From assembly GCA_012689375.1 (NCBI GenBank), contig JAAZLO010000014.1:1-33882 (forward strand): a stretch of DNA of 33,882 bases, in the 5' to 3' direction. The notes beneath the pieces were generated by a model, which worked only from the letters and a program-made list of their open reading frames with translations, ran no database searches and had not been told where the DNA came from. Both the position numbers and the translations under genes were made by a program. Of the stretch, positions 13,673-24,229 are shown piece by piece (the stretch's first letter is position 1; each line of letters opens with the position of its first letter). The DNA is from Bacillota bacterium (GTDB taxonomy: Bacteria > Bacillota > SHA-98 > UBA4971).

Positions 13673-14416
13673 GTGGTTAAATTTGGGATAATAGGAGGAA
13701 CGGGATTTTATAAAATGGAAGGCTTGCCGGTTTTAGAGAAAAAAGAGATCACAAATGAATATGGCAGGACCCATGTCTCCGTTGCCCGGTACAGGGATCT
13801 TAAAATAGCTTTTGTACCAAGGCATGGAACATCTCATTCTCTCCCCCCGCATGTGATAAATTACCGGGCAAATATTAAAGCAATGAAAGATATAGGCGTG
13901 AAGTACATAATGTCAACAGCTGCAGTCGGTTCTTTACACATGTTGCTCCCCCCAGGTGAACTTGTGTTGCTTTCCCAGTTTATTGATTGGACAAAGGGTA
14001 GGATTAGCACATTTTTTGACGGGGAAGATCCGAATTTTAAGCATGTGGATGTCACAGAGCCCTTCTCCGGGCTCCTCAGAAAGAAGGCGTTAAAGGCGGC
14101 AGAGAGTAGTGGAATCCATATACATCCGTATGGCACATACGTTTCCACTGAAGGGCCCAGGTTTGAAACCCCGGCTGAAATTAATATGATGAGGATGATA
14201 GGCGGTGATGTTGTCGGAATGACCGTTGTTCCAGAAGTCGTGCTTGCCAATGAAGCCGGGATAGATTATGCTACAGTAGCCGTTGTTACAAATTATGGTG
14301 CAGGGATGTTGCCCGGGGGGATTTACCATGAGGAAGTCGAGGGGATCTTTGCTTCAGCCAGACAGCGCCTTGAGGAGTTACTTATAGGCATATTTAATGC
14401 TGTAGCCAAGGAGTGA
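13673..14416 (+). CDS. mtnP: 5'-methylthioadenosine/S-methyl-5'-thioinosine phosphorylase family
   Basis: 247-aa purine nucleoside phosphorylase of the MTAP subfamily, which splits a 5'-modified nucleoside with phosphate to a base and a 5-modified ribose-1-phosphate. Visible are GIIGGTGFY (phosphate loop), FVPRHGTSH, the STEGPRFETPAE loop and VGMTVVPEVVLANEAG. At the purine-specificity site it reads VVTNYGAG (Asn207, Gly209), where adenine-specific MTAPs have TDYD. This suggests a 6-oxopurine substrate (methylthioinosine, 5'-deoxyinosine or inosine). The start is GTG at 13673 after GGGGGA. The stop overlaps the start region of the mtnA-like gene. Confidence 0.88.
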   Translation: MVKFGIIGGTGFYKMEGLPVLEKKEITNEYGRTHVSVARYRDLKIAFVPRHGTSHSLPPHVINYRANIKAMKDIGVKYIMSTAAVGSLHMLLPPGELVLLSQFIDWTKGRISTFFDGEDPNFKHVDVTEPFSGLLRKKALKAAESSGIHIHPYGTYVSTEGPRFETPAEINMMRMIGGDVVGMTVVPEVVLANEAGIDYATVAVVTNYGAGMLPGGIYHEEVEGIFASARQRLEELLIGIFNAVAKE

Positions 14417-14421
14417 AGGAC

Positions 14422-15453
14422 ATGACCTATGAAACACAGGTGAGACTCCCGTTTTTAATTCAACCAGATAATACAGTGCGCTATGAAAACGGGGAGGTCT
14501 TTGTTCTTGATCGCAGGATCTATCCTTTTAAGATCGAGTTCGTACGTTGTAAGACATATCAGGATGTAGCCCAGGCTATTAAAGATATGGTTACACAAAG
14601 TGGTGGCCCTCAATTTTGCGCAGGGTATGCCCTGGCCCAGGCTGCACATTGTTCCAGCAATAGGTCTGGTGAAGGTATTATGGAGGAATTAAAGCAGGCT
14701 GCAAAATGCCTAGTTGCCACGAGGCCGACTAATAATAGTATTATACTAATGACTGAAAAGATGCTAAAGATTGCCGAAAATGCACTTAAAGAAGGGCAAA
14801 ATACTGAAGATGTATTGGTCAGAGCCGTTGATGCTGAGTTCCAGGCACGGCATAGGCGGGGTTTGGAGATAGGTAAAAACGGGGCAAGCCTTATTGAAGA
14901 CGGCGATTCGATTTTAAATCATTGCTGGGCTGAGCAAGGGATTGTCTACACTGTTTATACAGCCCTTATGCAGGGGAAAAGAATTAAAGCATATTGTTGT
15001 GAAACTAGACCTTATCTTCAAGGCGCCAGGCTTACTGCTGATGCTTTATGTGATATGGGAGTTAATACAACTATAATTACAGATAGTACCCCCTCATACC
15101 TTATGTGGAAAGGAATGGTTTCAAAATTCTTTACAGGCGCGGACAGGGTTACGATGGATGGTAGTATAGTAAATAAAATAGGCACTTTTCAGATTGCCTT
15201 ATCAGCCCACTATTTCGGTGTCCCGTTTTTCGTATTTACTGACGGGCCTGATCCAGGGGCTCATATACCTGATGATGTAGTCATAGAAGAGCGGAACCCT
15301 GATGAAGTTCTGGAATGCTTGGGACAGCGTACAGCTGCACCCGGGGCTAAAGGTTACTACCCTGCATTTGACGTGACGCCTCCTGAATTTGTAAGTGCCA
15401 TCATTACAGAGAAGGGGGTATTTTCCCCGTATTCCATGAATCACAATAAATAG
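14422..15453 (+). CDS. mtnA: MtnA-like aldose-ketose isomerase (methylthioribose-1-phosphate isomerase / eIF2B family)
   Basis: 343 aa from the ATG at 14422, which has AAGGAG 8 nt upstream; a GTG at 14413 overlaps that site. The family isomerises 5-methylthioribose-1-phosphate to the ribulose form using a Cys/Asp pair. Both are present: Cys168 (in LNHCWAEQG) and Asp241 (in GADRVTMDG). CETRPYLQGARLTA and NKIGTFQIALSAH are also recognisable. It is a divergent member: the N-terminal RGAPAIG motif is degenerate (QSGGPQFCAGYA) and THCNAGxLA became NHCWAEQGI. The substrate could therefore be a related 5-deoxyribose-1-phosphate. It is coupled to mtnP and followed 20 nt later by the aldolase. Confidence 0.82.
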   Translation: MTYETQVRLPFLIQPDNTVRYENGEVFVLDRRIYPFKIEFVRCKTYQDVAQAIKDMVTQSGGPQFCAGYALAQAAHCSSNRSGEGIMEELKQAAKCLVATRPTNNSIILMTEKMLKIAENALKEGQNTEDVLVRAVDAEFQARHRRGLEIGKNGASLIEDGDSILNHCWAEQGIVYTVYTALMQGKRIKAYCCETRPYLQGARLTADALCDMGVNTTIITDSTPSYLMWKGMVSKFFTGADRVTMDGSIVNKIGTFQIALSAHYFGVPFFVFTDGPDPGAHIPDDVVIEERNPDEVLECLGQRTAAPGAKGYYPAFDVTPPEFVSAIITEKGVFSPYSMNHNK

Positions 15454-15473
15454 GTTTTACGGAGGAATCCAAA

Positions 15474-16079
15474 ATGGAATTTAAAGATCTCAGGATCAAA
15501 ATAATTGAAACATCCAAACTTATGTTAAAGTTAGGACTGACAGTGGGTACCGGAGGGAATGTCAGTGTCAGGTGCTCTGATAATGACAGGTTTTTGATTA
15601 CCCCGAGCAGTCTGCCTTATGAAACACTTAAACCTGAGGATATTGTAATGGTTGATATTAATAAAGGAACCCATGAGGGGCGTAATAAGCCATCTATTGA
15701 ATATCAGTTGCATAGGAGCGTATATCTTGCCCGTAATGATGTACGTGCCGTTGTACATGCCCATCCGCCGATTGCATCTGCGCTTGCAGTTTCAAGGAAG
15801 CCGCTCCCGCTTATTACAGATGCATGTACAATTGCATTCAAAGATAAGGTCCGGGTTGCGGAGTACGGGGCACCGGGCAGTCATGAGCTTGCTATTAATA
15901 CCGTAGAGGCGTTAGGTAATAATACTGCCGTATTTTTATCCAACCATGGGATTCTGTGTACAGGTGATGATCTTGATACTGCCCTAGAAAGATGTGTTAT
16001 TCTTGATAAAGCAACTCTGACTTATATTCTCTCCTTGTTGGCAGGGACACCTGTTTGTCTTAAGCCGCTCACTGATTAA
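15474..16079 (+). CDS. Class II (zinc) aldolase, FucA/AraD family
   Basis: 201-aa aldolase/epimerase. The zinc ligands His95, His97 (VVHAHPP) and His158 (SNHG) and the catalytic Glu76 (PSIEYQLH) match the FucA layout (Glu73, His92, His94, His155). GTGGNVSVR forms the phosphate-binding loop. Members next to mtnP/mtnA cleave 5-methylthioribulose-1-phosphate or 5-deoxyribulose-1-phosphate to dihydroxyacetone phosphate plus methylthioacetaldehyde or lactaldehyde, and that role is inferred here from context. The distinct MtnB-type dehydratase is the alternative, but no mtnW, mtnX, mtnC or mtnD gene is nearby. The ATG at 15474 has GGAGG upstream. Confidence 0.85.
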   Translation: MEFKDLRIKIIETSKLMLKLGLTVGTGGNVSVRCSDNDRFLITPSSLPYETLKPEDIVMVDINKGTHEGRNKPSIEYQLHRSVYLARNDVRAVVHAHPPIASALAVSRKPLPLITDACTIAFKDKVRVAEYGAPGSHELAINTVEALGNNTAVFLSNHGILCTGDDLDTALERCVILDKATLTYILSLLAGTPVCLKPLTD

Positions 16080-16208: not shown

Positions 16209-17198
16209 GTGCCTGCTCTAAAATCCCGAAATCCCAATCTTGTCCTTGTGGGCCTGGAAGAAGGGCGATTCAGCCCGGTTGAGGCAATACAGGCTTTAAG
16301 GGCATCCCATGATTCCCATGCAAGGAGGCGACACTTAAAAACAGAAGCCCCTGATTCTGCTGAATGGAAGTTAAATGATGTCCTTTCTGAATTAGACAGC
16401 TTAGTGGGACTTTCCGCAGTAAAGGCATTAGTTCGTGAGCTTGTAGCATACGTCAGGATTCAAAGGATAAGGGAGATGCGTCAACTTGCTTCGGAACCTT
16501 TAGTGTTACATATGGTCTTTAGCGGAAATCCCGGGACAGGAAAAACTACATGCGCCCGTCTTATGGGAAAGATCTTCCGCGAAATGGGTGTATTGGAAAA
16601 AGGCCATCTTATAGAAAGAGAACGGGCTGATCTTGTCGGGGAATATATAGGTCATACCGCTCAGAAAACCCGGGATCAGATTAAGAAGGCCTTAGGCGGC
16701 ATACTCTTTATTGATGAGGCGTATTCTTTGGCTACAGGCGGTGATAAGGATTTCGGAAAAGAATCAATTTCTACGCTTATTAAGGCAATGGAGGATAACA
16801 GAAATAGGTTTATAGTGATCCTGGCCGGCTATCGTGATGAAATGACAAGGTTTATTCAATCAAACCCCGGTATACGTTCACGGTTTCCTATTCATATAGG
16901 GTTTCCTGACTATACTACGGGGGAGTTGATGCTTATTGCCGATCTTATGTTAGGAAAGCGGGATTATAGGATGGATCTTGCTGCCAGAGCCAGATTAGAG
17001 GTTGTCTTAAGCAGAAACTCGGGATCTGACAGTGATTATTCAGGGAATGCTCGTTTAGTCAGGAATATTATTGAACGTGCAATTAGACGTCAGGCGCTCA
17101 GGCTTGTGGATGGAAAATCTTTAACCAGGGATGAACTTATGCTGATTCGGAGGGAAGACATAGAGAACAACTATGAAGCGGTGCATTGTGTTGGGTAG
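16209..17198 (+). CDS. spoVK: SpoVK/CbxX-CfxQ-type AAA+ ATPase
   Basis: 329-aa AAA+ protein of the CbxX/CfxQ family, called SpoVK in spore formers, where it is needed for spore maturation in the mother cell. Walker A is GNPGTGKT (106-113), Walker B LFIDEA (166-171), and the pore-loop region GEYIGHTAQKT precedes it. Sensor/arginine-finger segments (LAGYRDEM, GIRSRFP) follow. The N-terminal 60 residues are variable. The start is GTG at 16209, with AAGGAGG 9 nt upstream. The 3' end overlaps the GTPase gene by 26 nt. This is the first gene of a tightly overlapping four-gene block. Confidence 0.88.
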   Translation: MPALKSRNPNLVLVGLEEGRFSPVEAIQALRASHDSHARRRHLKTEAPDSAEWKLNDVLSELDSLVGLSAVKALVRELVAYVRIQRIREMRQLASEPLVLHMVFSGNPGTGKTTCARLMGKIFREMGVLEKGHLIERERADLVGEYIGHTAQKTRDQIKKALGGILFIDEAYSLATGGDKDFGKESISTLIKAMEDNRNRFIVILAGYRDEMTRFIQSNPGIRSRFPIHIGFPDYTTGELMLIADLMLGKRDYRMDLAARARLEVVLSRNSGSDSDYSGNARLVRNIIERAIRRQALRLVDGKSLTRDELMLIRREDIENNYEAVHCVG

Positions 17199-17787
17199 AC
17201 CAAACGTAGGCAAGACCCTTTTGGTTCTGGTCCTTGCCGAGCATATGAAAGTGAAAAATGTCGAAATAACTTTTCAAGATCCTAATGGTTCTGAATATAC
17301 TAGGAAGTATCCGATAGATGTTGCCATAAGGGAGCTTGTCGGTGCCTTGCCTCATCAAACAAAATGTCTCCAATCGCTTTCCCTTAATTTCAGGGTAGGG
17401 AAGGGTAGAAAGGAAGTAAAGATTATTGATACTACAGGTCTTATTGAAAAGATTCACGATGATCCCTTGATAAGAAAAGCTATGGCCCAAACTTTATCGA
17501 TAATACACAGTACACAAATTGTCATTCATGTGATGGATGCATATCTAATGGGTTGCAGGAATGCATTATCTGATCAGACTGAAAGAAATTTAGATATCCA
17601 ACTCGCAAGTTTTGCAGGACTAAGAGGTGGGTACTGTATTGCAGCAAATAAAATGGATATGCCTGAGGCTAAGCGTGGCCTTGTTAGGATAAGACGGTTG
17701 TTTGCAGGTTATAAGGTTCTTCCTGTATCGGCAATCACAGGGCAAGGTTTCAAGGAGGTTAGGAGGCATGTTCTTCAAAATCTCTAG
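17173..17787 (+). CDS. Small Era/Obg-type GTPase, unassigned family
   Basis: 204-aa single-domain GTPase. G1 GRPNVGKT (8-15), G3 DTTG (86-89), G4 NKMD (159-162) and G5 VSAITGQGF (185-193) are all intact and in order. The lysine after G1 is followed by Thr as normal. There is no KH or membrane domain, so it is not Era or FeoB. The start ATG lies inside spoVK (26-nt overlap) with only a distant GGAGGG, so it probably depends on translation of spoVK. A GTPase beside SpoVK and two membrane proteins suggests a role in sporulation or envelope assembly, by context only. Confidence 0.85.
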   Translation: MKRCIVLGRPNVGKTLLVLVLAEHMKVKNVEITFQDPNGSEYTRKYPIDVAIRELVGALPHQTKCLQSLSLNFRVGKGRKEVKIIDTTGLIEKIHDDPLIRKAMAQTLSIIHSTQIVIHVMDAYLMGCRNALSDQTERNLDIQLASFAGLRGGYCIAANKMDMPEAKRGLVRIRRLFAGYKVLPVSAITGQGFKEVRRHVLQNL

Positions 17788-18373
17788 GGTGTTTTCGGAC
17801 ATCCTTGCAGTGATGCTTGCCGGTATGACAATTAAACTTCTCGATGATTTTCTTGATCATACGATAGATTCAATATCTGAAAATCCATCCCTTATAGATG
17901 TTCTGGGGCCCGGGAGTGTAGTATACACTTTAGTTTTTGGGGTAATTGCATGCAGCATTAACTTGAAATTAGCAGCGCCTCTTATGCTTTCAGCTTATGC
18001 GGTAGGTATGTTAAAGGATCCTTCGGATATGCTTCCGTTAGGATTCAGCGCTTGGGTAGAATCAATGATTATTGTTGTTATTACATGGAACATATTCGGG
18101 TGGCGTACGACTTTAGCCAGTATCTTGATTATGACAACCGTAGAATTTGTAGATGATATAATTGATTATTCTCGGGACAGTGCAGTACATTCCGGTAACT
18201 TTGTTTATTCAATAGGAAAAGGCCAACTCATTTTAATTTCCCTTGCATTGTTTATCGCATCTTACATTGTAGACAGACGGATGACGATTGTTGTTGCCAT
18301 ATGTACTCCTACCATTGCAATTGCAGCAGATTTTATCAGTAGATCTCACAGGGGGGAACCGTATGTCCCTTGA
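17768..18373 (+). CDS. Duplicated membrane protein with two DDxxDxxxD motifs, unknown family
   Basis: 201 aa from the ATG at 17768 (tandem GGAGG and AGGAGG just upstream); an upstream in-frame start at 17702 would lie deep in the GTPase gene. It is strongly hydrophobic, with about six membrane segments. Two halves align: LAGMTIKLLDDFLDHTIDS (17-35) with LIMTTVEFVDDIIDYSRDS (120-138). Each is followed by a short loop with GxG and two more hydrophobic stretches. Both halves carry DDxxDxxxD at D26-D34 and D129-D137. I do not recognise the family. The pattern resembles the metal-binding aspartates of prenyl-transferring enzymes but is no proof of that activity. It overlaps the GTPase by 20 nt and the next gene by 11 nt. 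Confidence 0.8.
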   Translation: MFFKISRVFSDILAVMLAGMTIKLLDDFLDHTIDSISENPSLIDVLGPGSVVYTLVFGVIACSINLKLAAPLMLSAYAVGMLKDPSDMLPLGFSAWVESMIIVVITWNIFGWRTTLASILIMTTVEFVDDIIDYSRDSAVHSGNFVYSIGKGQLILISLALFIASYIVDRRMTIVVAICTPTIAIAADFISRSHRGEPYVP

Positions 18374-18635
18374 AGGATGGTTACTCCTTCTTGTCATAGC
18401 CTTTCTTATTGGGTATATAACTGGACATAGGCAAGGTAAGACAGAGGGATTCAGGGAAGGTGCGGTATTCGCACCAATCGAAATGCGTCATGCCACTTTA
18501 GAAAGGGGCAGGTGTATAATATGTGGGACAGCAGCCAAAAGAAAGCGTGATAAAGGACATGCACGGAATGCCCGGACTGATCCTGCAAAAAGAAATAACA
18601 GGACCATAGTTTATCCTGACGAACGAAATCCTTAA
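18363..18635 (+). CDS. Small membrane-anchored protein with CxxC, unknown function
   Basis: 90 aa from the ATG at 18363, with GGGGGAA a few nt upstream, overlapping the preceding stop by 11 nt. There is one N-terminal transmembrane helix (about residues 5-22). A glycine-rich GHRQGKTEGFREG follows, then CIIC (C51, C54), then a very basic C-terminal tail rich in Lys, Arg and Asn. The CxxC could bind zinc or be redox-active, but a single CxxC is weak evidence. It is the last gene of the spoVK-linked block and lies 16 nt before the PLP-enzyme gene. No family recognised. Confidence 0.7.
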   Translation: MSLEGWLLLLVIAFLIGYITGHRQGKTEGFREGAVFAPIEMRHATLERGRCIICGTAAKRKRDKGHARNARTDPAKRNNRTIVYPDERNP

Positions 18636-18651
18636 AAGAGGTGCTGATACA

Positions 18652-19956
18652 GTGAATAATATGGGCAGCGCAAATATAAAAAATTTAAATGCAGACCATG
18701 ATCTTACTGAACTTTTCATCAAAAGTAAGGAGGCAAAGAAATCTAGACTTCAGAATATCGAAGATAATCTGAAGCTTAACTTTACAAAGATCCTGAATGC
18801 TTTCAAGGCAGTAGGTGTTTCAGATCAGGATTTCACAGGTGCTACCGGATATGGGTACGATGATCGGGGAAGGGAAATCACCGAAAAAGTCTACGCTGAG
18901 GTATTCAGAGCTGAGGATGCACTTGTACGCCAACAGATTGTTTCAGGGACTCATGCATTATCCCTTTGCTTTTTCGGATTGCTTTTACCCGGGGATCATA
19001 TTCTTTTTGCCACGGGCAAACCTTACGATACATTACAATCGGTAATCGGTATGGACAAGCAGTTCCCGGGATGTCTTGCTGAATTAGATATTACCTGGGA
19101 TATAGTACCCGGAACGGCTGATACAGGATTCGATGAAGATAAAATTGCCCTAATTGCAGATTCTTTAAGAAACAATACAAAAGTTGTATTTATACAACGA
19201 TCCAGAGGTTATGCGTGGCAGCACTCTGTTTCCTGCAAGACTATTGCAAAGATTTCCGAGGCAATAAAATCTAAGAACCCGGATCTGGTCATAGTCGTGG
19301 ATAATTGCTACGGGGAATTCACGGAACCAGTTGAACCTATTGAAACGGGGGCTGATATCGTTGCAGGATCTCTTATTAAGAACCCGGGTGGAGGAATAGC
19401 CCCCACGGGCGGGTACATTGCCGGCAGGAAAGATTTAGTGGCAAGAATTGCCACAAGATTAACTGCCCCGGGAATAGGAGGGGAAATCGGACCCAGCCTT
19501 GACACCTCCCGCCTCATGTTGCAGGGGTTGTTTCTTGCACCCCAGATGGTGGCGGAATCATTGTCTGGCACATGTGTGGCAGGGAACGTATTCCGCCTTC
19601 TTGGGTATAAGGTTCTCCCTGACATTAATGAAATTCCTTCAGATAATGTGCTTGCCGTCAAGATGGGAGATGAAGAAAGATTGTTGACATTTTGCCAAGG
19701 CTTTCATTCGGCAAGCCCTATAAATACACTATATAGGCCTGTAGCTTCACCTATGCCGGGGTATGCTCATAATATAATTATGGCAGGTGGCACTTTTGTG
19801 CAAGGTTCTTCTTCAGAACTTACTGTTGATGCCCCTATATGTTCTCCATATATCATATATATGCAAGGTGGCTTACTCCGTTACCACGTAGAATTAGCTA
19901 CGATCTCCGGTCTTGCAGCGTTAAAGAGGCATAATTTACTTGAACCGCCGTATTAA
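18652..19956 (+). CDS. PLP-dependent methionine gamma-lyase family protein (aluminium resistance type)
   Basis: 434-aa fold type I PLP enzyme of the Met_gamma_lyase/aluminium-resistance family, common in Firmicutes and usually of unproven substrate. The PLP aspartate lies in IVVDNCYGEF (Asp217). The Schiff-base lysine is Lys243 in GSLIKNPGGGIAPTGGYIAG. IVSGTHALSL forms the phosphate-binding turn. It may cleave a C-S bond in methionine, cysteine or a cystathionine-like compound. The start is GTG at 18652 (AGAGGTG upstream); an ATG at 18661 is possible. It sits between the spoVK block and speD. Confidence 0.87.
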   Translation: MNNMGSANIKNLNADHDLTELFIKSKEAKKSRLQNIEDNLKLNFTKILNAFKAVGVSDQDFTGATGYGYDDRGREITEKVYAEVFRAEDALVRQQIVSGTHALSLCFFGLLLPGDHILFATGKPYDTLQSVIGMDKQFPGCLAELDITWDIVPGTADTGFDEDKIALIADSLRNNTKVVFIQRSRGYAWQHSVSCKTIAKISEAIKSKNPDLVIVVDNCYGEFTEPVEPIETGADIVAGSLIKNPGGGIAPTGGYIAGRKDLVARIATRLTAPGIGGEIGPSLDTSRLMLQGLFLAPQMVAESLSGTCVAGNVFRLLGYKVLPDINEIPSDNVLAVKMGDEERLLTFCQGFHSASPINTLYRPVASPMPGYAHNIIMAGGTFVQGSSSELTVDAPICSPYIIYMQGGLLRYHVELATISGLAALKRHNLLEPPY

Positions 19957-20568: not shown

Positions 20569-22026
20569 ATGAAACGCATGTGCCTTGCTTGTTTTATTGT
20601 TCTCATAGGTATCTTTGTAGCCATTTTATGTCCACACGTTTCTGCAGGGGAGGGGGAGACCGTGGAGAAAGCCACGTTGAGAGTCGGGGTTGAAGATAGA
20701 AAAGATTTATCCTTGACAATTTATAACAGCGGTATTGCATTGGTGAAAGATACCCGATTTATTCAATTTTCTAAAGGATTGAACTTAGCGGAAATATCGG
20801 ATCTTTCCGCTAATATGGATGCCACTTCAGTTTCATTTACGTCTTTAACAGATCCGGACGGGCTCTCCACTGTTGAACACAATTTTGATTATGGAATAAA
20901 TAACAGACAGGCATTCTTGGAGAAGTACATCGGGAAAGACATTTGGTTAGTCTTAGACGGCATTCGTATTTCCGCAAAACTTATATCCGTTGATGGGCAG
21001 GGTAGGCTTGTTGTGGATCTTGATGGAAGGATTATCCTTGATCCGCCGGGATCCATAGAGTTGCCTCAGCTGCCTTCGAAGATTATTACCCACCCTACAT
21101 TAACATGGTATGTAGAATCTGATTGGATTAGGCGGCATGAGGTGGAAATAGCCTATCTCACCTCAGGTCTCAACTGGTCAGCTGATTACGTATGTACTTT
21201 AGATGATAAAGATGAAAAATGTGTCTTAACCGGCTGGGTCACACTGAACAATAACAGTGAAACAACCTACCGGGACGCACACCTGAGATTAATTGCAGGA
21301 AACATACACATGCTCCCCGGGTTTGAATCCACGAGGGGCACCATGAAGACTATGATGGTTGCTGAATCAACAGTTAATCATGGAATAGGGTTTGAAGGAA
21401 AGTCTGGATTTGAATATTATACGTATTCATTACCGGAAAAAACTACGGTTGTTGCCAACCAGTTAAAACAAGTGCAACTTCTTGAAGCATCAAATGTACC
21501 GTTAAAAAAATTATATATTCTTGAAAGACCGGTAGTTCATTACGTATATGAAAAAGATGTTCAGCCTGGTCAAATTGAGACCGTAAGTGCCAAAGCGGTT
21601 TTAGAATTTATCAATAATAAAGAATCGGATCTCGGAATACCGTTGCCTGCAGGAAGAGTCCGTGTATATAAGGCCTTGGTTGATAAAAGTATGGATTTCA
21701 TCGGCGAAGATGCAATTTCCCATATCCCCCGTGATGAGACAGTGAGGCTCTACGTAGGTGATGCATTTGATGTCATAGGTGAAAGAATGGTGACTGATTT
21801 TAAAATTGTGGAAAAGAGCCGCGAAGAGGCATATTGCATCAAAGTGCGAAACAAAAAAGATGAGGATATAAAGGTCGCCGTTATAGAAAGGTTTTACGGT
21901 GATTGGACAATTTCGAGCCCGGTGCCGCATGAAAAGCCGGATGCCAACACCGTAGTGTTTAATGTGGATGTGCCTAAAGGCAGTGAGGTAGAAATCTTGT
22001 TCCGTGTTCACATTAGGCTTGAGTAA
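20569..22026 (+). CDS. Secreted DUF4139-type protein
   Basis: 485 aa with a clear signal peptide (MKRM, then a hydrophobic core, cleavage near HVSAGE at about 26). The first half has the conserved 'IYNSGIALVKDTR' and a stretch ending in LTWYVESD. The rest is beta-rich with SGLNWSADYVCTLDD, the core motif of DUF4139 proteins, and a C-terminal VEILFRVHIRLE. The function of the family is not known; the protein is probably exported and cell-surface associated. The ATG at 20569 has AGGAGGGG 7-8 nt upstream. A separate transcript is likely after a 120-nt gap. Confidence 0.8.
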   Translation: MKRMCLACFIVLIGIFVAILCPHVSAGEGETVEKATLRVGVEDRKDLSLTIYNSGIALVKDTRFIQFSKGLNLAEISDLSANMDATSVSFTSLTDPDGLSTVEHNFDYGINNRQAFLEKYIGKDIWLVLDGIRISAKLISVDGQGRLVVDLDGRIILDPPGSIELPQLPSKIITHPTLTWYVESDWIRRHEVEIAYLTSGLNWSADYVCTLDDKDEKCVLTGWVTLNNNSETTYRDAHLRLIAGNIHMLPGFESTRGTMKTMMVAESTVNHGIGFEGKSGFEYYTYSLPEKTTVVANQLKQVQLLEASNVPLKKLYILERPVVHYVYEKDVQPGQIETVSAKAVLEFINNKESDLGIPLPAGRVRVYKALVDKSMDFIGEDAISHIPRDETVRLYVGDAFDVIGERMVTDFKIVEKSREEAYCIKVRNKKDEDIKVAVIERFYGDWTISSPVPHEKPDANTVVFNVDVPKGSEVEILFRVHIRLE

Positions 22027-22106: not shown

Positions 22107-22667
22107 TTGGATGAAGCACGAATCATGAAGGCAGTAAGGGAAATTTTAGAGGCTATCGGCGAAGACCCGGACCGGGAAGGATTAAAAGGTACACCTGATC
22201 GGATTGCCAGGATGTTTCAAGAAATATTCTCCGGGTTGGAAAAGGATCCGCGTGAGGAATTAACTCCTGTTTTTCATGAAGATCATGAAGAAATGGTAAT
22301 AATAAAGAATATCCCTTTTTATTCTATGTGTGAACATCATTTGCTTCCGTTCCACGGCAAGGCCCACCTTGCCTATCTTCCCAGGGGTGGCAGGGTAGTA
22401 GGACTTAGCAAGTTGGCAAGAGTAGTGGAAACACTTGCAAGAAGGCCCCAGCTCCAAGAAAGACTCACGAGCCAAGTTGCAGATATGATATTTGAAGCCC
22501 TAAAACCCCACGGTGTAGTTGTTATTGTAGAGGCGGAACATCTTTGCATGTCAATGCGTGGAATAAGTAAGCCCGGGAGCCGTGCGGTAACTTCGGCAGT
22601 CCGCGGGCTCTTTAATAAGGATGCAGCTGCAAGGGCTGAAGCACTTACTTTAATAAAAGGAGAGTGA
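22107..22667 (+). CDS. folE: GTP cyclohydrolase I
   Basis: 186-aa GTP cyclohydrolase type I, first step of tetrahydrofolate synthesis: GTP to dihydroneopterin triphosphate plus formate. The zinc ligands Cys75 and His78 (MCEHHLLPF) and Cys147 (EHLCMSMRG) are present, as are [11 protein letters not shown] and [10 protein letters not shown]. The start is TTG at 22107 (GGAAGGA about 11 nt upstream); an ATG at 22125 is the alternative. No other folate genes are adjacent. The stop lies 83 nt before the spoIVA start. Confidence 0.96.
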
Positions 22668-22673
22668 CAAGAC

Positions 22674-22700
22674 GAATAATTGTCTCCCCCACTCATATAT
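22674..22700 (+). promoter_or_regulatory. Possible sigma-E (mother-cell) promoter for spoIVA
   Basis: GAATAAT (22674-22680), 13 nt, CATATAT (22694-22700), about 50 nt before the spoIVA ATG. It resembles the sigma-E -35 (kmATAtt) and -10 (CATAcaaT) elements. spoIVA is a sigma-E gene in Bacillus subtilis, so the position fits. Confidence 0.4.
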
Positions 22701-22750
22701 ATTATTCTGAAAGCCAGATGTCTTATGGTGCCCAGGGGGAGGGACCAGAT

Positions 22751-24229
22751 ATGGAGCGATTTGATATCTTTCAGGATATGGCTACCAGGACCGGAGGGGA
22801 TGTTTACGTTGGAGTAGTCGGTCCGGTGAGGACTGGGAAGTCTACGTTTATTAAGCGGTTCATGGACCTCCTGGTTATTCCCAATATCGACAATGTCTAT
22901 GATAAAGAGAGATCCGTTGATGAGTTGCCTCAGAGCGGTGCAGGTAGGACTATTATGACCACCGAGCCTAAATTTGTTCCAAGTGAAGCAGTCTCTGTCA
23001 CGATTCAGGACAACATCGAAGTCAGAACAAGACTAGTTGATTGCGTGGGTTATTCTGTGGAGGGAGCATTAGGGTACGAGGAAGACGACGGACCCCGAAT
23101 GGTTATGACCCCTTGGTTTGATTATGAGATTCCCTTTGAAGAAGCCGCTGAATTCGGAACCCGGAAAGTTATTTCTGATCATTCTACAATTGGCCTCGTT
23201 GTTCTGACAGACGGCAGTATCACGGACATCCCAAGGGAGAATTACATTGATGCTGAGGAAAGAGTTATCAGGGAACTGAAGGATTTAGATAAACCTTTTG
23301 CCTCAGTATTAAATTCGACCCACCCTTGGGCGAAGGAAACTATGGATCTTGCTTCAGAACTTGCAAAGAAATATGGGGTACCTGTCATACCCATGGATTG
23401 TCTTAAGATGGATTTGGAGGATGTTCTTGATATCCTGAGAGAAGTTCTTTACGAGTTCCCAGTTCGTGAAGTGAGTATACGCCTGCCTGTCTGGTTGAAT
23501 GAGGTTCCGGCTGAACATTGGCTCAGAGAGAAGTTCCAGGAAGTTGTGATTTCGGCCGTAAAGGAAGTCGAAAGAATCCGCGATATTCCCGAAACTGTCA
23601 AAGGCTTTACAGAACATGATTTTATATCTTCTGCGAATCTCACAACTTTGGATCTAGGGACAGGTCAGGTAATAATTGATTTGAAAGCTCCGAGGGAATT
23701 ATTCTTCCAGGTTATCAAAGAAGCCAGTGGGCTTGAAGTGGAAGGGGATCATCACCTCCTGAGACTTATGAGGGAACTTTCCGTAGCAAAAAGGGAATAT
23801 GACAAGGTTGCTGACGGTCTGAAGGATGCAGATGAATTAGGGTATGGGATAGTTATGCCGCTCCTCGATGAACTTGAACTCGAGGAACCGGAGCTTATCC
23901 GACAAGGTAGCAGGTTTGGGGTGAGATTAAGAGCTGCCGCCCCTTCCATTCACATGATTCGTGCAGACATTGAAACAGAGGTTACCACATACGTGGGGAC
24001 GGAGAGGCAAGGGGAGGAACTTGCACGGAGATTAACTGATGAGTTCCAGGAAGATCCTGAGCGAATTTGGACTACAGATTTCCTTGGAAAGTCCCTACAT
24101 GAGCTTGTTAAAGAGGGGATAGAAAGCAAACTTTATAGGATGCCTGAAAATGCTCAGCAAAAACTCCAGGAGACATTACAGAAAATCATTAATGAGGGAA
24201 GCGGCGGGCTAATCTGTATAATTCTGTAG
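22751..24229 (+). CDS. spoIVA: Stage IV sporulation protein A (spore coat morphogenetic ATPase)
   Basis: 492 aa from the ATG at 22751, which has GGGGGAGGG upstream. This is the same length as Bacillus subtilis SpoIVA, so the in-frame codons back to 22664 are excluded. SpoIVA polymerises on the forespore surface using ATP and founds the coat basement layer and cortex assembly. Walker A is GPVRTGKS (24-31), preceded by DVYVGVV. The switch/sensor region [19 protein letters not shown] and the conserved C-terminus GGLICIIL are present. This is the firmest evidence that the organism forms endospores. Confidence 0.98.

Follow-up and report, generated by a model that had tools for sequence, protein, structure and literature searches.

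The window, by which we mean the whole 33,882-nt stretch of contig JAAZLO010000014.1 analysed here, carries a gene for a small membrane protein, hereafter the compact protein, together with the following genes and features:

16209..17198, + strand: spoVK-like AAA+ ATPase gene (TIGR02881, E = 8.1e-116), overlapping the GTPase gene by 26 nt
17173..17787, + strand: small TRAFAC (Obg/Era-like) GTPase, 204 aa, overlapping the compact gene by 20 nt
17752..17758, + strand: AAGGAGG Shine-Dalgarno sequence of the compact gene, inside the codons for the conserved C-terminal KEV(K/R) of the GTPase
17768..18373, + strand: compact UbiA-like seven-helix membrane protein, 201 aa (open reading frame and translation, structure model, family alignment)
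17843..17869, + strand: first aspartate motif of the compact protein, DDFLDHTID, residues 26-34, at the predicted cytoplasmic end of helix 1
18152..18178, + strand: second aspartate motif, DDIIDYSRD, residues 129-137, at the predicted cytoplasmic end of helix 5
18363..18635, + strand: small CxxC protein, 90 aa, one helix, overlapping the compact gene by 11 nt
18652..19956, + strand: methionine gamma-lyase family gene (ynbB-like; PF06838, E = 1.9e-148)
22664..24229, + strand: spoIVA (TIGR02836, E = 2.9e-237), which marks a spore-former lineage

The compact gene is thus the third of four overlapping genes (spoVK-like, GTPase, compact and CxxC), and the ynbB-like gene, next in the operon, starts 16 nt after the CxxC gene. 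The open reading frame of the original prediction is present, with an ATG start and AAGGAGG 9 nt 5' of the start codon. That prediction overlooked the conserved GTPase and CxxC partners, between which the compact gene forms the middle of an overlapping trio. The spoVK-like protein scores 385.6 bits against TIGR02881, under the equivalog cut-off of 423, so that 'spoVK-like' is the accurate label. Elsewhere in the window, a methionine-salvage-like cluster (MTA phosphorylase, MtnA-like isomerase and class II aldolase) lies upstream of spoVK at 13673-16079, and a predicted exported protein of 485 aa, with a weak DUF4139 match at most, is encoded at 20569-22026.

A profile search of 101 related genomes found the compact family in 34, in a single copy each and with a sharp gap in the scores: matches had E < 1e-30, and none followed down to the limit of 1e-5. 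In an even sample of 399 genomes from across the phylum, 92 had the family, again as a single copy, and these were spread over many families; carriers include Orenia, Halonatronum, Fuchsiella, Halanaerobacter, Fervidicola, Thermovorax, Sporosalibacterium, Thermotalea and Alicyclobacillus. Our search of viral contigs found no relatives of the compact protein.

Judging from neighbour profiles, in 101/107 distinct loci the compact gene has the GTPase gene immediately before it and that of the one-helix CxxC protein immediately after it. Among the exceptions, the GTPase is found 2.8-2.9 kb upstream in two (L018/L040 from Frackibacter and L042 from Fuchsiella), and for L134, L163 and L170 the upstream sequence covered about 1 kb. 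In one Halanaerobacter locus (L048), the 5 kb flanking the compact gene on each side contain neither the GTPase nor the CxxC gene nor spoVK. Within the 101-genome set, each of the 34 carriers has the GTPase family; only three non-carriers have it, and in these it comes after spoVK with the membrane gene absent. In two genomes without the membrane gene (L120 and L121), spoVK and a diverged GTPase are followed by genes resembling ThiF/MoeB and an amidohydrolase, and then by ynbB; a different partner for the GTPase is possible in these two.

The GTPase displays the motifs G1 (GxxNVGKT), G3 (DxxG) and G4 (NKxD) of an Obg-like G domain, and among solved structures its closest relative is 1lnz, the G domain of Obg (E = 4.5e-16). 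It differs from Obg/Era-type TRAFAC GTPases in consisting of the G domain only (about 200 aa) and in having an invariant T63 and a near-invariant Q67 region of its own; the window protein scored far below every curated NCBIfam cut-off and falls in no named family. The GTPase gene ends about 20 nt into the membrane gene at most loci, and the KEV(K/R) codons of its C-terminal consensus GFxEVKxFV double as the AAGGAGG ribosome-binding site. In the window this dual-use stretch, C-terminus of the GTPase and Shine-Dalgarno of the next gene, spans 17752-17787, and it is kept across the family. The CxxC protein, which matched no Pfam family at cut-off, has one helix, with its N-terminus predicted from charge to lie outside, followed by a GHRxGxxEG stretch and the CxxC, the latter present in 48 of 50 sequences. 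At four loci (L015, L126, L127 and L128) no stop codon separates the CxxC gene from dapF (diaminopimelate epimerase), which continues in the same frame; the product may be a fusion protein, unless dapF uses its own start.

The original prediction had proposed a survey of co-occurrence with spoVK and sporulation. We found spoIVA in each of the 34 carriers among the 101 genomes and in a further 59, bringing the carriers checked to 93/93, and none of the 12 spoIVA-less genomes among the 101 has the compact gene (hypergeometric about 0.005, uncorrected for relatedness). In this survey the trio is found only in genomes with sporulation genes, spoIVA being a marker of such genes and not proof of sporulation. 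Upstream of the trio, spoVK was present in 50 of the 55 loci with room for it; downstream, ynbB was found in 24 of 56 loci, dapF in 19/56 and dapL in 18/56. The names dapF, dapL and hflX at these loci are those we presume from inspection of the sequences. In Bacillus subtilis, MurG is activated by SpoVK when the cortex is made (PMC10659427). The presence of spoVK together with the diaminopimelate genes suggests a connection to wall-precursor metabolism, which we take as a hint only because dapF is also a housekeeping gene. Our literature search, largely outside subscription papers, returned no description of the trio and no paper linking UbiA with spoVK, with this trio, or with sporulation and a GTPase; the words prenyltransferase and GTPase are absent from the main text of Galperin 2012 (PMC3533761) on sporulation genes.

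The two DDxxDxxxD motifs that had drawn attention to the compact protein are present 103 residues apart. The original prediction had staked itself on conservation of these aspartates, and D26, D30, D129 and D133, along with Y53, G80, M81 and E98, are invariant in 107/107 distinct homologues. D27 is kept in 104/107 and D130 in 100/107, so the strict core is a DxxxD in each half; position 137 is D or E in 95 of 104 ungapped homologues. A GxG was also said to follow each motif; both occur in the window protein (G47-x-G49 and G150-x-G152), whereas the family strongly conserves G150 only. Three homologues (L126, L127 and L128) have degenerate second motifs, and L126 and L127 degenerate first motifs too (DAAVD/DGVED in L126, DGVVD/DHWVD in L127), with the full module still kept.

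The proposed alignment of the two halves held up in a self-alignment. Over 40 residues without gaps, the halves of the window protein reached a BLOSUM62 score of 58, compared with a mean of 27 and a maximum of 52 in 2000 shuffles. Alignment of half against half with family profiles (hhalign) gave P = 1.2e-11 over 68 columns, as against 0.06 and 0.12 for reversed halves, and the per-sequence repeat Z averaged 5.5 over 35 homologues. The internal duplication is therefore real and well beyond chance.

AlphaFold2 modelled the window protein with seven helices (pLDDT 87.9, pTM 0.84) at residues 2-29, 49-64, 66-81, 95-110, 112-136, 151-168 and 170-193, and the homologue L032 likewise with seven (pLDDT 92.6, pTM 0.88). 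The earlier description of each half as one helix followed by two hydrophobic stretches fits this model, although it left the linking helix uncounted (3+1+3). Lysine and arginine are biased towards the motif side of the membrane (mean sum per sequence of 10.3, versus 2.0 on the opposite side), so both motifs should be cytoplasmic and the N-terminus outside. The invariant positions, spaced i, i+3/4, i+7, all fall at the ends of helices 1-5 on this predicted cytoplasmic side. As far as predicted helices and charge can tell, the two motifs would thus occupy the cytoplasmic C-ends of two parallel helices with three helices between them, as in UbiA. The question raised at the outset, whether the aspartates face one cavity, was judged from this topology and from the spacing of the invariant residues.

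The original prediction had noted a resemblance to UbiA-type prenyltransferases and DDxxD prenyl synthases, and Pfam, NCBIfam, profile and structure searches all point the same way. Searched singly against Pfam, NCBIfam, PHROGs and PDB sequences, the window protein gave nothing reliable, including no UbiA match and no score at the curated PF01040 cut-off; alignments and homologues alone were informative. Of 35 family members, 17 matched PF01040 (UbiA) at E <= 0.05 (best 5.9e-9), and one, the sole passer among the members scanned individually, exceeded the curated cut-off (36.0 vs 34.2 bits). No other Pfam family was matched by more than one member. Single, unrepeated matches to BrkB, ThiT/YuaJ and DUF373 were rejected as chance, and a reading as a PAP2 or CDP-alcohol phosphatidyltransferase protein was dropped, as none of the 35 members matches those families. 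The NCBIfam matches of these members, with modest E-values, were mostly to MenA, geranylgeranylglycerol-phosphate and other UbiA-type prenyltransferases. In profile searches of the PDB, trans-prenyl synthases and a UbiA-type enzyme ranked first, weakly (E 0.018-0.39 and 0.087-1.2), and hhalign gave P = 0.0014 to canonical UbiA and 0.001 to trans-prenyl synthases, with reversed profiles at 0.03-0.3. The UbiA match continues through an N-x-x-x-x-x-G segment after the motif. For L008 and L018, two of the better-scoring members, it is the second half of the UbiA profile that matches the first half of the protein, which is what repeated halves would produce.

Canonical UbiA itself was not matched in 10 of the 34 carriers, including the source genome and its six genus mates; in these ten, no UbiA-like protein other than the compact protein was detected. 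The source genome does have a trans-prenyl synthase.

Foldseek with the predicted structures, a check suggested at the outset, returned mainly trans-prenyl diphosphate synthases with probabilities up to 0.93, and at lower ranks class I terpene synthases and ApUbiA (4od4; rank 44, probability 0.33, TM 0.33). TM-scores of the relevant matches were about 0.3-0.44, and 0.33-0.44 for whole models against UbiA and prenyl synthases, all below 0.45 and under the usual threshold of 0.5, so the modelled helical plan is similar to that of UbiA and prenyl synthases and does not prove membership of the fold. Among viral proteins, Foldseek found nothing significant (viral UbiA, TM 0.40). Such low TM-scores, hhalign values of only about 0.001 and the lack of any match for the window protein alone are what one would expect had aspartate-rich helices arisen convergently, unrelated to prenyltransferases, with the scores reflecting nothing but membrane-helix composition and the aspartate motif. 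We consider this improbable: UbiA is the sole Pfam family recurring among the members, its match spans the N-x-x-x-x-x-G segment outside the motif, and reversed profiles score far worse. Homology of the compact protein to UbiA is, on these profile matches, a probable relationship in which we have good confidence.

In AfUbiA, nine transmembrane helices are arranged such that the first eight form two pseudosymmetric four-helix bundles, and TM2 and TM6 carry the aspartate motifs where they end on the cytoplasmic side; the fold is shared with trans-prenyl synthases and possibly arose by duplication (PMC4106721). Seven helices with motifs on the first and fifth would equal TM2-TM8 of this plan, without TM1 and TM9. 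The 59 residues between Tyr139 and Asp198 of AfUbiA may correspond to the 56 between Y77 and D133 of the compact protein, while equivalents of AfUbiA R22 and K146 are not evident. The original view that the layout differs from both enzyme classes was too pessimistic, because spacing and topology match UbiA TM2-TM8, with a shorter first loop.

Given these results, we favour, at about even confidence, a compact, internally duplicated UbiA relative that keeps the TM2-TM8 core and acts as a GTPase-coupled isoprenoid-phosphate enzyme of sporulation. Both aspartate motifs would bind Mg2+ together with the head group, phosphate or diphosphate, of an isoprenoid (farnesyl, geranylgeranyl or undecaprenyl being candidates) at the cytoplasmic face, and the protein would catalyse or control a transfer reaction. 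Further along the same line of thought, the GTPase might serve as its switch, while a subunit or tether role might fall to the CxxC protein, and the trio may act with SpoVK in the lipid-linked or wall-precursor metabolism of the developing spore. For catalytic isoprenoid chemistry as such we see the case as evenly balanced. The weakened motifs of L126, L127 and L128 leave room for a binding or sensing role, and a non-catalytic descendant of the UbiA/prenyl-synthase fold could bind polyprenyl phosphate or diphosphate as a sensor, a carrier or a membrane receptor of the GTPase. In its favour are the degenerate motifs of L126 and L127, where the whole module is kept, the incomplete first bundle, and the GTPase as a natural regulatory partner; the invariance of D26, D30, D129, D133, E98 and Y53 in all 107 homologues is instead as expected of an active site, and we regard this alternative as rather unlikely.

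The other half of the original suggestion, a small lipid-phosphate or cation-handling protein, survives merely as a rival, most concretely as a GTPase-gated divalent-cation transporter or channel of the sporulating cell, Feo-like in parts, in which five invariant acidic residues (D26, D30, E98, D129 and D133) would select the ion. Spores accumulate metal ions, and a dedicated GTPase and a CxxC protein are encoded in the same overlapping operon. These residues are, however, predicted to sit at cytoplasmic helix ends, not in mid-membrane, and sequence homology leads to UbiA and to no transporter family, which makes a transporter distinctly improbable.

Should the GTPase-coupled enzyme reading be true, the spoVK operon of many spore-forming Firmicutes encodes a so far undescribed isoprenoid enzyme, pointing to an unknown lipid or carrier step in the building of the spore envelope and offering an example of a UbiA-like enzyme that has a GTPase dedicated to it. 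Its most specific version, a minimal, near-symmetric UbiA-type enzyme, switched by the GTPase and completed by the CxxC protein, that processes an undecaprenyl-type carrier or other isoprenoid for the spore envelope beside SpoVK, is unlikely to hold in every part; on that version, the protein could lie near the ancestor with four duplicated helices that has been put forward for UbiA. UbiA has been proposed to originate by duplication (PMC4106721), a proposal for which the visible repeat is relevant, and the trio, being short and single-copy, is amenable to deletion testing.

Among known systems, the UbiA superfamily (PF01040; MenA, UbiA and DGGGP synthase) shares with the compact protein two aspartate motifs that terminate parallel helices, four apart, on the cytoplasmic side, longer cytoplasmic loops after them, a G-containing segment after the second motif and an internal pseudo-repeat. 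The second motif accords with the DxxxD of UbiA (D133xxxD137 in the window protein). UbiA differs in having eight or nine helices and about 290 aa, compared with seven and about 200 aa here, and in its first motif, NDxxDxxxD as against DDxxDxxxD, the N position being D in 107/107 homologues. In the compact protein, moreover, the sequence repeat is still visible, and a GTPase and a CxxC protein are encoded with it. Trans-isoprenyl diphosphate synthases (PF00348) share two DDxxD motifs and supply the top Foldseek matches, and the QLxDDxxD of the second motif resembles their FQxxDDxLD; they are soluble proteins of about 300 aa with another helix arrangement (TM about 0.4), whereas the compact protein has 201 aa and seven hydrophobic helices, and PF00348 was absent from the Pfam matches. 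The FeoA-FeoB-FeoC iron uptake system also combines a GTPase, a polytopic membrane protein and a small cysteine protein. Its parts are analogous to those of the trio, in which GTPase and membrane part are instead separate genes and the motifs are UbiA-like; no Feo family appeared among the Pfam or NCBIfam matches of the 35 compact members. Since its helix number and first motif depart from those of UbiA, the compact protein should not be filed as a member of the UbiA family; the most fitting description is that of a compact UbiA-like variant whose genetic partnership is new.
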